Origin: a virus
DNA length: 22,465 bases
IMG/VR virus record: IMGVR_UViG_3300007076_000031
Coordinates: 1 to 22,465 of that record
Strand: one strand, 5' to 3'
Shown here: piece by piece, positions 1,973-5,107 of the stretch
How positions within the stretch are numbered: the first letter of the stretch is position 1
How the letters are laid out: the number at the start of each line of letters is the position of its first letter
Position numbers and translations under genes: made by a program
Notes under the pieces: model-generated
Seen by the model: the letters and a program-made list of their open reading frames with translations, nothing else
Database searches by the model: none
Told to the model about the DNA's origin: nothing

Positions 1973-2421
1973 CGCTCGCCCGGTGGCGGCACGCCCTTGC
2001 CGCGCTTGCTGCTCTTCGCGAAGCGTTCCTCGAACGCGATGATCGCCTCGTCGTTGCCCCACGCCTTGCGCAGGAACGTGACGTCCGCGGCGGTGAGATA
2101 GCCGCGCTGCTTGATCGCCTGCACCGTCGCGGCGTACTCGTCCACCCACCGGCGATTGCGGCGTGCCAGCTCGTGATCGAGACGCTCGTAGCAGCTCACG
2201 TCCACGCCGGTCTCGTCGAAGCGCCCGACGCAGACCATCCGGCCGCCGTTGAGCGGGTCGAGACGCAGACGCTCTGGGCGGGTGCCGCACTCGGCGCAGA
2301 CCGAGAAGCTACCCGCCGGTGCCCCGAAGGTCGGACGGACGTACCCGCCGCGATCGCGATCGCTCGCACGGGCTCGCTCCATCTCGCATTCGGCTTCGTC
2401 GTGGTCGTCGTTGCGGCTCAC
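1969..2421 (-). CDS. Hypothetical early protein with four-cysteine site
   Basis: The product is 150 aa, not recognised. A charged N-terminus of about 27 residues, with Asp, Glu and Arg, is followed by Cys42-x2-Cys45, then Cys64 and Cys77, which could bind one zinc. The C-terminal half (about 80-138) is predicted helical, with YLTAADVTFLRKAWGNDEAI resembling a short DNA- or protein-binding helical unit. The ATG at 2421 overlaps the stop of the DnaD-like gene (ATGA). This position, directly after a replication initiator, is where many phages encode helicase loaders or other replication accessories, but the sequence shows no ATPase motif. Confidence 0.65.
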   Translation of the reverse strand: MSRNDDHDEAECEMERARASDRDRGGYVRPTFGAPAGSFSVCAECGTRPERLRLDPLNGGRMVCVGRFDETGVDVSCYERLDHELARRNRRWVDEYAATVQAIKQRGYLTAADVTFLRKAWGNDEAIIAFEERFAKSSKRGKGVPPPGER

Positions 2422-3407
2422 TTCGGCGGCTCCGTGCGAAGCATCGACGCGACAAGCGGGCTCACCGGCTCGTGGCGCTCGATGCGCTGGTTTGACTTCG
2501 GGACGCCGGCGCGGCGCTGCTCGTGCTCGTGCCAGGCGGCGTTACCCTCGGCGAGGTAGTCGGGGAACTTCTCGGGCCCGAAGAGCGTCGCCGGACGCAG
2601 GTACTCGGTCATGCGGTCGTCCTGCAGCCAGCGATTGCAGCGGTCCCAGACGACCGTGCGCAGGTCGTCTTCGGTGAAGCCCTTGCGCAGAAGCCTCACG
2701 ACGCGGATCACGTGCGCATCGCTCGTGAAGCTCCGTCCGGTGCGCTCGTTGAGCTTGCTCAGGACGCGCTGCGCGACTGCGCGCTCGGCTGGACTCGGCG
2801 AGCCAGACTTCTTCGCGTGCCCGTTGACCCGAGGAACCAGGGCGGCCTCCGCCGCAGGCGGAGTGAGCCTGAAAGGCGATACGGCGGGGTCGTCCGAAGA
2901 TGCAACGGTGGGGACGGAAGACGCAGACGGTTCCCCCGGGTCCCCCTCCAGGTCGGAGATCGGGGTCGGAGATCGGAGATCGGAGATCGGGGTCAGTCTC
3001 GAGGGTCTCGCGAGACCCTCGCGAGCATTCGCGAGACCCTCGCGAGTGGGTTCAGGAACGTCGCAGGCTTGGCCCTCTTCGGGCACCGGCACGCGAGGTT
3101 TCGACGGCCGATCTACAACCTGGTGACGCTGCCATCCGGGAATCGAGAAGAAGGTCTGGTCGTTCGCCCGGTAGAACTTCACGAACCCGATCGCGAGAAG
3201 CTCGCGAGAGGCTCGCGAGACTCTCGCGAGGTCTGGGTCGGTCTGCCAGATCTGGCCCGCCAGGTAGCCCAGACTACCGCGCCCGTTTCCGTGATCGTCG
3301 GCGAGCAGGATCAGTCCGATCGACAGCACCCGCGCGTCGGATGAGCATCCCGCCAGGCGCTCGTTCTCCAGCCACTCGGGCTTGAGGGTGCGAATGCGTC
3401 CCGCCAT
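2418..3407 (-). CDS. DnaD-like phage replication initiation protein
   Basis: The 329-aa product has three parts. Residues 1-105 form a winged-helix-like N-domain beginning MAGRIRTLKPEWLENERLA. Residues about 106-205 are a low-complexity linker rich in P, S, E and D. Residues about 208-290 match the conserved phage C-terminal domain seen in replication proteins (LNERTGRSFTSDAHVIRVVR, then CNRWLQDD, then YLRPATLFG). Such proteins bind the phage origin and recruit the host replicative helicase. In several phages (lambda O, for example) the origin lies inside this gene, and here the gene contains the repeat arrays at 3008-3046 and 3191-3230. The ATG at 3407 overlaps the stop of a 16-codon ORF (TGATG), with GAGG 8 nt upstream. 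Confidence 0.8.
   Translation of the reverse strand: MAGRIRTLKPEWLENERLAGCSSDARVLSIGLILLADDHGNGRGSLGYLAGQIWQTDPDLARVSRASRELLAIGFVKFYRANDQTFFSIPGWQRHQVVDRPSKPRVPVPEEGQACDVPEPTREGLANAREGLARPSRLTPISDLRSPTPISDLEGDPGEPSASSVPTVASSDDPAVSPFRLTPPAAEAALVPRVNGHAKKSGSPSPAERAVAQRVLSKLNERTGRSFTSDAHVIRVVRLLRKGFTEDDLRTVVWDRCNRWLQDDRMTEYLRPATLFGPEKFPDYLAEGNAAWHEHEQRRAGVPKSNQRIERHEPVSPLVASMLRTEPPK
2955..2994. repeat. Short tandem repeat, GGAGATC units
   Basis: Six units follow each other: GGAGATC, GGGGTC, GGAGATC three times, GGGGTC. The tandem lies in the linker part of the DnaD-like gene and codes for TPISDLRSPTPISDL in that protein. It may be a slippage-prone linker or part of an origin region together with the TCGCGAG arrays. 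Confidence 0.6.
3008..3046. repeat. Candidate iteron array A (4 x TCGCGAG)
   Basis: Heptamers TCGCGAG start at 3008, 3019, 3029 and 3040, a spacing of 11, 10 and 11 nt. Three of them are full CTCGCGAG palindromes. The array also reads as an 18-bp direct repeat at a 21-nt period. Because 11 and 10 are not multiples of 3, codon or peptide repetition alone does not explain the spacing. It lies within the DnaD-like replication gene and is a candidate initiator-binding site or origin. Confidence 0.65.
3191..3230. repeat. Candidate iteron array B (4 x TCGCGAG)
   Basis: Heptamers TCGCGAG start at 3191, 3202, 3213 and 3224, exactly 11 nt apart. The last three are full CTCGCGAG palindromes. The array lies in the winged-helix part of the replication gene, 144 nt from array A. 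Constant one-turn spacing would place all four on the same face of the helix, as expected for cooperative protein binding. Confidence 0.65.
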
Positions 3408-3480: not shown

Positions 3481-3825
3481 TCAGGCGAGCGCGGCTTGGA
3501 CTTCGTCTTCCTCGTCGTCGATGTCGGCGTCGACGAGGGGCTGCTCGTCCTCGCCGTCGGCGCACGCGTGGGCGCGGACGTTCGAAGGTCCGTGCGCGGC
3601 GATCTCCTCGGCCGACGCCTCCTGCATCCAGAGCTCCGGCTCGATCCCGAGCTGCCGGCTCACGTGCAGCGCGATCGCGATGCCGGGGCGCGAGCCCCGC
3701 TCGAGCCGGCTGACCAGCGAGTCGGCCGACAGGTTCAGGGCGCGCGAGCACTGCGACTGGGTGAAGTTGCGCTCGCGGCGCCAGCGGCGAAGGGCGATCG
3801 CGCCCTTGTTGAGCATGCGTTGCAT
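3481..3825 (-). CDS. XRE-family regulator, Cro-like, first gene of early operon
   Basis: The 114-aa product carries an XRE/Cro helix-turn-helix at about residues 7-62 (FTQSQCSRALNLSADSLVSR with LERGSRPGIAIALHVSRQLG). The C-terminus is strongly acidic (DADIDDEEDE). It is divergently transcribed from another XRE gene and heads the replication operon, the place of a Cro-type regulator in lambdoid switches. The start ATG at 3825 has no Shine-Dalgarno but lies 6 nt after a TANNNT hexamer (TACTGT), so the mRNA may be leaderless; a second ATG at 3816 is possible. Whether it represses or activates cannot be told from sequence. Confidence 0.8.
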   Translation of the reverse strand: MQRMLNKGAIALRRWRRERNFTQSQCSRALNLSADSLVSRLERGSRPGIAIALHVSRQLGIEPELWMQEASAEEIAAHGPSNVRAHACADGEDEQPLVDADIDDEEDEVQAALA

Positions 3826-3831
3826 GAGGGG

Positions 3832-3862
3832 ACAGTAATCACGCCTAGACGCAACCTTGCAA
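3832..3862 (-). promoter_or_regulatory. Putative leaderless early promoter
   Basis: On the minus strand TACTGT (3837-3832) stands 6 nt before the ATG at 3825. A weak -35 candidate TTGCAA (3857-3862) lies 19 nt upstream. The direct repeat GCAAC at 3851-3855 and 3859-3863 overlaps the -35 and could be an operator. Confidence 0.4.
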
Positions 3863-3903
3863 CTCTTTCGGCGTATGCTGCTCCGGCTGTCTGTGAACGG
3901 CCA

Positions 3904-3932
3904 TTGTGGACTGGGTCGAAATGACCTACATT
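3904..3932 (+). promoter_or_regulatory. Putative leaderless promoter of CI-like gene
   Basis: TTGTGG (3904-3909), a 17-nt spacer and TACATT (3927-3932) end 7 nt before the ATG at 3940. This predicts transcription starting at or next to the start codon, as for lambda cI from PRM. No Shine-Dalgarno precedes the gene. Confidence 0.5.
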
Positions 3933-3939
3933 CCCGTCC

Positions 3940-4365
3940 ATGGCAAAGCGGCCAGATCCAACTGTGGAACTAATCCGTCGGAACATGGTCCGGTTCAGGG
4001 AGGAGGCCGGTCTGTCGCAGGCGGACGCCGCGCTGGACTCGGGCATCCCGGTGGACAACCTGCGCCGCTACGAGAGCGGCAAGGTGCACTTCGACGTGGT
4101 CGTCCTCAAGGCGATGGCCGACGTGTATGGTCACGCGCTCGAGGACTTCTTCGCCAGCGATCCGCCGCCGGCAAAGCTTGAGGATCGCCCGGCTATCTTC
4201 GCGCGCATTCGCGGCGGCATCGAGGTCGACGACGACATCTGGGGCGACGTCGTGCGGGCGGTCGATCGCGCCAACGGGCTCGTCGCCCAGCGCCGGCGGA
4301 CGCGGCGCCCGCGCCTGCCCGCCGACGGTAAGGGCAAGCACCACCCAGACAGGTCTCGGGAGTAA
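3940..4365 (+). CDS. XRE-family repressor, CI-like
   Basis: The 141-aa product has a helix-turn-helix at about residues 9-70 (RFREEAGLSQADAALDSGIP, then NLRRYESGKVHFDVVVLKAM), typical of XRE/CI DNA-binding domains. Residues 71-115 are acidic and helical, and the last 25 are basic and probably disordered. There is no S24/LexA-like cleavage domain, so it would not self-cleave. The gene diverges from the Cro-like gene and precedes an ImmA/IrrE-like gene, a pairing in which the second protein normally destroys the repressor. It is probably the lysogeny repressor. The ATG follows a TANNNT box by 7 nt and lacks a Shine-Dalgarno. Confidence 0.75.
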   Translation: MAKRPDPTVELIRRNMVRFREEAGLSQADAALDSGIPVDNLRRYESGKVHFDVVVLKAMADVYGHALEDFFASDPPPAKLEDRPAIFARIRGGIEVDDDIWGDVVRAVDRANGLVAQRRRTRRPRLPADGKGKHHPDRSRE

Positions 4366-4498
4366 GCCCAGACCGGCACAGCATGCTGTCAACGCGTTAC
4401 GAGTCGGTCACGACAAAGGTGTGATGGTGCTAGTCCTGTAAGGGCCCTCGCTGATAGTGTCGTCGGTGGTCGGCGTTTTACCGACAGAGGGAGGCGAC

Positions 4499-5107
4499 AT
4501 GAAGGGGCCGGCGATCGCGCAAGCGCGGGTGGACTGCACGGATGGGGGACTCGACGAGCTGGTCGAGTACTGCGCGCGCGCCGCGGTGCGCCGCTCGGGC
4601 CAGCGCCGCCCTCCGTACTGCCCTCGCTTACTGGTGAAGGCGCTCAGCGTGACCGCGGTGGTCATTGGTGCCGAGTTGCCCGAGCGCGTCGACGAGATCG
4701 TCTCGATGACCGCTGAGGGGCCGATGATCCTGTACCGACGCGAGTTGGGCGCCATCGATCGCCGCTTCGCGATCGCGCATGCGGCCGGCCATCTCGCGCT
4801 CGGCGACTTCGCGACTCAGGCTCCGCTCCGCCCAGGGCTGCTCGTGCCGCGCGAGCTGCGCGCCGCGCGCGACCGCGAGCGCCGCTGCGATCGCTTCGCC
4901 GCCGCCGCCCTGGTGCCGCTCGACGACCTGGCGCGCGAGATGGCCGCGCTCGGCGGCGCCGCCACCGGCGATCGCGAGACGCAGCACCAGGACTGGCTCG
5001 ACCGGCTCGATCGCCTCGGCGAGATCTTCATGGTCCCGCCCAACACGATCCGCCGGCGCATCGGCGAGCTGTCCGTGTTCCACGTGAAACAGACAGATTC
5101 ACCTTGA
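4499..5107 (+). CDS. ImmA/IrrE-like protein with degenerate active site
   Basis: The 202-aa product has the ImmA/IrrE layout: RFAIAHAAGHLALGD (93-102 region), then ERRCDRFAAAALVP (127-140). Active members have an HExxH motif plus a downstream Glu before A-(N/D)-x-FA as third zinc ligand. Here the motif is His94-Ala-Ala-Gly-His98, lacking the catalytic Glu, and the third-ligand position is Arg129. It is therefore probably not an active metalloprotease by the usual mechanism and may act as a binding partner or antagonist. In intact pairs ImmA cleaves the XRE repressor encoded next door, and this gene lies directly after one. The ATG at 4499 was chosen because GGGAGG stands just upstream; a GTG at 4457 gives a longer but less likely form. 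Confidence 0.7.
   Translation: MKGPAIAQARVDCTDGGLDELVEYCARAAVRRSGQRRPPYCPRLLVKALSVTAVVIGAELPERVDEIVSMTAEGPMILYRRELGAIDRRFAIAHAAGHLALGDFATQAPLRPGLLVPRELRAARDRERRCDRFAAAALVPLDDLAREMAALGGAATGDRETQHQDWLDRLDRLGEIFMVPPNTIRRRIGELSVFHVKQTDSP

Follow-up and report, generated by a model that had tools for sequence, protein, structure and literature searches.

A probable replication origin built from phased TCGCGAG arrays inside a phage initiator gene

The initiator gene and its surroundings

The window, meaning the whole stretch of viral DNA analysed here (22,465 nucleotides), carries integrase, excisionase and RecE/RecT-like genes together with Mu-like head genes, and therefore probably belongs to a temperate phage. 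Two divergent HTH genes (3481-3825 on the minus strand and 3940-4365 on the plus strand) flank about 115 bp at 3826-3939 and are adjoined by an ImmA/IrrE-like gene (4457-5107), an arrangement that is probably a lysogeny switch.

The gene under study (Table 1) is assigned by PHROG to the replication initiation proteins (phrog_2149, 1408 and 428), which confirms the original prediction that the repeats described below lie inside a replication gene. The C-terminal part of its product matches Phg_2220_C (PF09524) with 59.4 bits against a curated cut-off of 27 (E 3.6e-16). This is the sole match in Pfam, where matches to the lambda O, the DnaD/DnaB and the plasmid replication-initiator (Rep) families are all absent, and a match of the same domain to TIGR02220 (NCBIfam) stays under the cut-off of that model. 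The AlphaFold model of the protein comprises a confidently predicted winged helix, a disordered linker and a helical C-terminal domain. A fold search with the N-terminal domain returned generic winged helices only, and no solved structure matches the family by sequence. The earlier description of the N-terminal domain as DnaD-like is not borne out, since the domain has no DnaD match and its winged helix is of a generic kind. In some phages whose C-terminal domain is similar, the protein is annotated as DnaD-like (e.g. H113).

Table 1. Positions of the initiator gene and of the elements within it
Feature	Position	Strand	Description	Source
Phage replication initiator gene	2418..3407	minus	329 aa; holds arrays, spacer and tract	PHROG, Pfam
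N-terminal winged helix-coding DNA	3048..3395	minus	residues 5-120; proposed iteron-binding domain	AlphaFold model
Array 1	3191..3230		four TCGCGAG iterons, spacing 11, 11, 11; codes residues 60-72, third helix of the winged helix	
Inter-array spacer	3047..3190		from the last iteron of array 1 to the first of array 2, read along the gene, 151 bp	
Array 2	3007..3046		four TCGCGAG iterons, spacing 11, 10, 11; codes start of the interdomain linker	
Short-period tandem tract (third element)	2955-2994 (repeat array 2951-2994)		period 7; coding strand GATCTCC, plus strand GGAGATC; GATC-rich; adjoins array 2	
C-terminal Phg_2220_C domain-coding DNA	2553..2765	minus	residues 215-285; proposed helicase-recruiting part	

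Two phased arrays of TCGCGAG

The eight copies of TCGCGAG lie exactly where they had been reported, at 3008, 3019, 3029 and 3040 and at 3191, 3202, 3213 and 3224, and their reported spacings, all about 10-11 bp, are exact as well. Six of the eight are full CTCGCGAG palindromes, as had also been stated, with minus-strand matches at 3007, 3018, 3039, 3201, 3212 and 3223. Elsewhere in the window the heptamer is present as five single copies only (4972, 7571, 12571, 21512 and 22347), again in agreement with the original prediction. On both strands of this G+C-rich sequence it totals 19 copies against a chance mean of 20.1; it is the clustering of TCGCGAG and not its total copy number that is non-random. 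No other 6- to 8-mer with at least four copies at 8-40 bp spacing was found in the window, and GC skew across it was uninformative.

The repetition had been placed at the level of the DNA and not of the protein, and this holds, as the copies occupy different frames of the gene, and TCGCGA, observed eight times, never exceeds five copies in 20,000 trials in which the initiator sequence was recoded synonymously.

Conservation among initiator homologues

Viral contigs searched with the DNA pattern of a TCGCGA array only gave at least 119 loci. At 92 of the 119 loci listed the array lies inside an initiator homologue (85 by ORF homology and 7 more by profile search), and most homologues carry two arrays about 115-215 bp apart. 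A 12-bp spacing, such as a codon-level repeat would give, occurs at 16 of the other 27 loci. Two loci where no initiator homologue was matched (L070:2952-3040 and L109:8148-8222) hold TCGCGA arrays with mirrored spacings (11,11,9 and 9,11,11).

A second sample was made independent of the arrays by fetching homologues through two protein motifs outside them. At least one TCGCGA cluster is present in 51 of its 67 readable genes; both homologue samples are drawn from the matches listed and are enriched for close or array-bearing members. Flanking DNA serves as a real control for the specificity of the arrays: counting arrays of at least three copies of any 6-bp palindrome, 42 are found in 55 kb of homologue genes and 0 in 229 kb of flanks, so that equally dense clusters elsewhere, which the original prediction had named as counting against it, were not seen there. 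Of the 758 spacings of 8-12 bp, 754 are 10 or 11 bp; a spacing of 12 bp is almost absent from the arrays and all three reading frames are used. Where the amino acids of two genes agree, synonymous codon differences stand at 0.17 within the arrays and at 0.50 elsewhere; all 39 of 39 genes show this direction, and the comparison did not require both genes to carry sites. The array codons thus resist synonymous change and selection acts on the DNA itself, throughout a large family of phage initiators in which this anatomy is conserved.

Loss of the arrays in close relatives had likewise been named as counting against the original prediction and was found in part, since the sites are eroded or altered in about half of the members of the window's own 15-row clade; across the homologues as a whole the arrays are kept at the frequency given above. 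No relatives were found when viral contigs were scanned with only the window protein as query, and anchoring on RecE yielded a single distant locus. The distances between the two arrays of homologues cluster at multiples of about 11.3 bp, which suggests that both arrays stay on one face of the helix; part of this clustering may come from erosion of edge sites and from common descent.

In the phages Redi, PFR1, Nymphadora, MooMoo and Persistence the arrays lie in genes annotated as replication initiation protein. The scan of related phage genomes that had been proposed as a check agrees with this picture, as pairs of TCGCGA in the five complete named phages are confined to the initiator gene with the exception of one pair in Nymphadora at 2166. 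In PFR1, Nymphadora, Persistence and MooMoo (L321, L323, L327 and L331), a DNA methyltransferase gene is found immediately upstream of the initiator gene. A contig of a metagenome-assembled genome labelled Sandaracinus (L337) encodes a closely related initiator whose gene keeps both arrays, and a myxobacterial host for the window phage is possible.

A short-period tract beside array 2

An equivalent of the tandem tract is present in 128 of 139 homologues, where it mostly starts 6-40 bp past array 2 and has a period of mainly 5, 7 or 8 bp. In homologues the purine content of the coding strand reaches 74-81% in the peak bins, and the predominant coding-strand trinucleotide is GGA in 127 cases and TCC in six; in most homologues the strand orientation is the reverse of that of the window tract. 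Repeat scores are 21.9 against 7.8 in synonymous shuffles, the best repeat in some genes being the array itself. The 30-bp bin next to array 2, which holds the tract, is the most frequent least-stable bin (32 of 142), with A+T only slightly raised, to about 45%. The tract is a candidate unwinding or single-strand loading element.

In initiators of Streptococcus, Latilactobacillus and Vibrio phages (L333, L335, L332 and L326), repeats of about 10-11 bp are followed by a short-period tract in linker-coding DNA, a likeness assessed by visual inspection of a few cases.

Site classes and the sister clade

The palindrome ACGCGT was first chosen as a negative control and turned out to mark a sister clade, in which arrays lie in initiator homologues at 98 of 119 loci, mostly with the identical two-array layout; the sites therefore evolve while the architecture stays. 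A single change between the TCGCGA and ACGCGT classes suffices on the tree of N-terminal domains, and C-terminal domains are common to both classes. Residues 38, 97, 99 and 101 separate the two classes almost perfectly, which is a lead and not a test because the site classes are clades. The idea that the site class may track the N-terminal and not the C-terminal domain is not used as proof of binding, since the sites lie in or beside the coding DNA of the N-terminal domain itself. Further variants include TCGNCGA and the different sites of phages BigBern1, Alderaan and BaxterFox.

A putative replication origin and its alternatives

The original prediction took the arrays to be the replication origin or a binding array, a view which gains support from the specificity of the arrays for initiator genes, their retention in homologues and the suppression of synonymous change. 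It is highly probable, judging from the sequence and from analogy with known phage origins, that 2955-3230 is a replication origin lying within the gene for its own initiator, with the iterons bound by the N-terminal winged helix. The arrays recur in about three quarters of the related genes sampled and are therefore very probably the sites at which the initiator takes hold of its own gene so that replication of the phage DNA can begin.

In the proposed mechanism the winged helix would bind the TCGCGAG palindromes, and the four sites of each array, being about one helical turn apart, would face one side of the DNA. The two resulting protein-DNA patches, one within and one just after the DNA coding for the winged helix, may cooperate across about 150 bp, and the strain would open the DNA at the adjacent tandem tract, whereupon the C-terminal domain would bring in the replicative helicase. 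Binding by the initiator, opening at the tract and recruitment of the helicase are modelled on SPP1 and lambda, and we infer that replication starts within 2955-3230. Points that weigh against this reading are the only modestly raised A+T of the tract, the reversed strand orientation of the window tract relative to most homologues, and the eroded or altered sites in the window's own clade.

An alternative is that the arrays form an autoregulatory operator through which the initiator only blocks its own transcription, with the origin located elsewhere. Initiators often repress themselves, and the sites lie within the gene, where the initiator itself probably binds them; however, operators are usually located at the promoter, whereas the arrays lie 130-440 nt inside the gene, repression would not require the tract next to array 2, and known phage initiators with in-gene repeats use them as origins, all of which makes an operator unlikely. 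The HTH genes within 1 kb raise the possibility that the sites are bound by the immunity repressor or another regulator, such as one of the two divergent HTH proteins. This is very unlikely, given that the sites accompany the initiator family in widely differing phages and are not dispersed over the genomes.

A partition site or centromere bound by a winged-helix protein would fit the appearance of the centromere-binding winged helices TubR, AspA and pNOB8 in the fold search, but they are listed among many others and are weak, generic matches (E > 0.1). With an integrase and an excisionase in the window, no ParA seen among the genes examined and a PHROG grouping of the gene with initiators, such a function is highly improbable. 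The same low probability is given to a role of the sites in DNA methylation or restriction control, which takes its appeal from the CGCG contained in both TCGCGA and ACGCGT and from the methyltransferase genes upstream of the initiator in four of the named phages; array-bearing phages such as Redi show no methyltransferase gene in the stretch examined, and methylation alone explains neither the helical phasing nor the variant sites without CGCG. That the repeats simply result from a protein sequence that is itself repetitive or codon-biased, as the G+C-rich gene and the similar residues encoded by the sites (SR, LAR, PRE) might suggest, has a negligible probability and is contradicted by the recoding trials, the use of all three reading frames, the near absence of 12-bp spacings and the suppressed synonymous change at the sites.

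Comparison with known origins

The statement in the original prediction that lambda and other phages carry iterons within the initiator gene agrees with the literature, in which SPP1 and lambda have known in-gene origins and 80alpha an inferred one (PMC6316719, PMC3985674, PMC5499656). The oriL of Bacillus phage SPP1 lies in gene 38, which encodes the initiator G38P, and consists of direct repeats to which the initiator binds, next to an unwinding region (PMC6316719). The putative origin in the window likewise lies inside an initiator gene. SPP1 differs from the window in that its unwinding region is AT-rich and that it has a further origin, oriR, and the window differs from SPP1 in its 6-8 bp palindromes, its two phased arrays and its short-period, strand-asymmetric tract.

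The lambda ori sits within gene O (PMC5499656), and its four iterons are bound cooperatively to form a nucleoprotein complex (PMC3985674). A group of four iterons within the initiator gene is common to lambda and the window, although the lambda iterons are 19 bp long and form one group of four, and the window protein has no match to the lambda O family. For ORF20 of Staphylococcus phage 80alpha the origin is inferred to lie inside the initiator gene because the gene cannot be complemented in trans; a repeat anatomy of this origin was not found in the text of the paper (PMC5499656). The 80alpha protein is a Firmicute protein of the SPP1 G38P type and is adjoined by a phage helicase loader.

In the cluster A mycobacteriophages Miko, Rachaly and Jeeves, the RepA gene is sufficient for replication and the origin is presumed to lie within or next to it (PMC7157519). 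These are actinophage initiator genes, and some of the homologues share the label 'RepA-like', a likeness of label; the cluster A RepA proteins relate to the RepA of pMSC262-family plasmids. In iteron plasmid and DnaA-trio origins the initiator sites adjoin a region that is opened to single strands, and a short motif is read as single-stranded DNA (reviewed in PMC10797057). The window resembles them in its repeated sites next to a candidate opening tract, but differs from the DnaA-trio in that its tract belongs to a kind that repeats every 5-8 bp and not every 3, and is a candidate single-strand element only, and from iteron plasmids in that its protein has no plasmid Rep family match.

The best-supported reading is that the window origin would work like those of SPP1 and lambda, differing from them by its short palindromic sites, its two phased arrays and its tract. 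In the open-access literature searched, no description of the two-array-plus-tract layout was found, and it looks like an undescribed arrangement.

Implications for phage replication

A broader and more tentative proposal, which we consider possible though rather less likely than its opposite, is that phased arrays followed by a strand-asymmetric tract inside the initiator gene constitute a general layout across a large part of the tailed phages. The tract would then serve in sequence-specific loading onto single strands, and linkers of low complexity in many phage initiators would arise as by-products of such DNA. The winged helix and its sites would travel in one DNA segment and change together, with a readable recognition code. 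For many phages, Redi, PFR1, Nymphadora and MooMoo among them, the arrays allow precise and testable predictions of the origin to be made from the sequence only, and they suggest a reason for the repetitive linkers of phage initiators. The natural site classes, together with the candidate residues that separate them, provide material on how a winged helix reads DNA.
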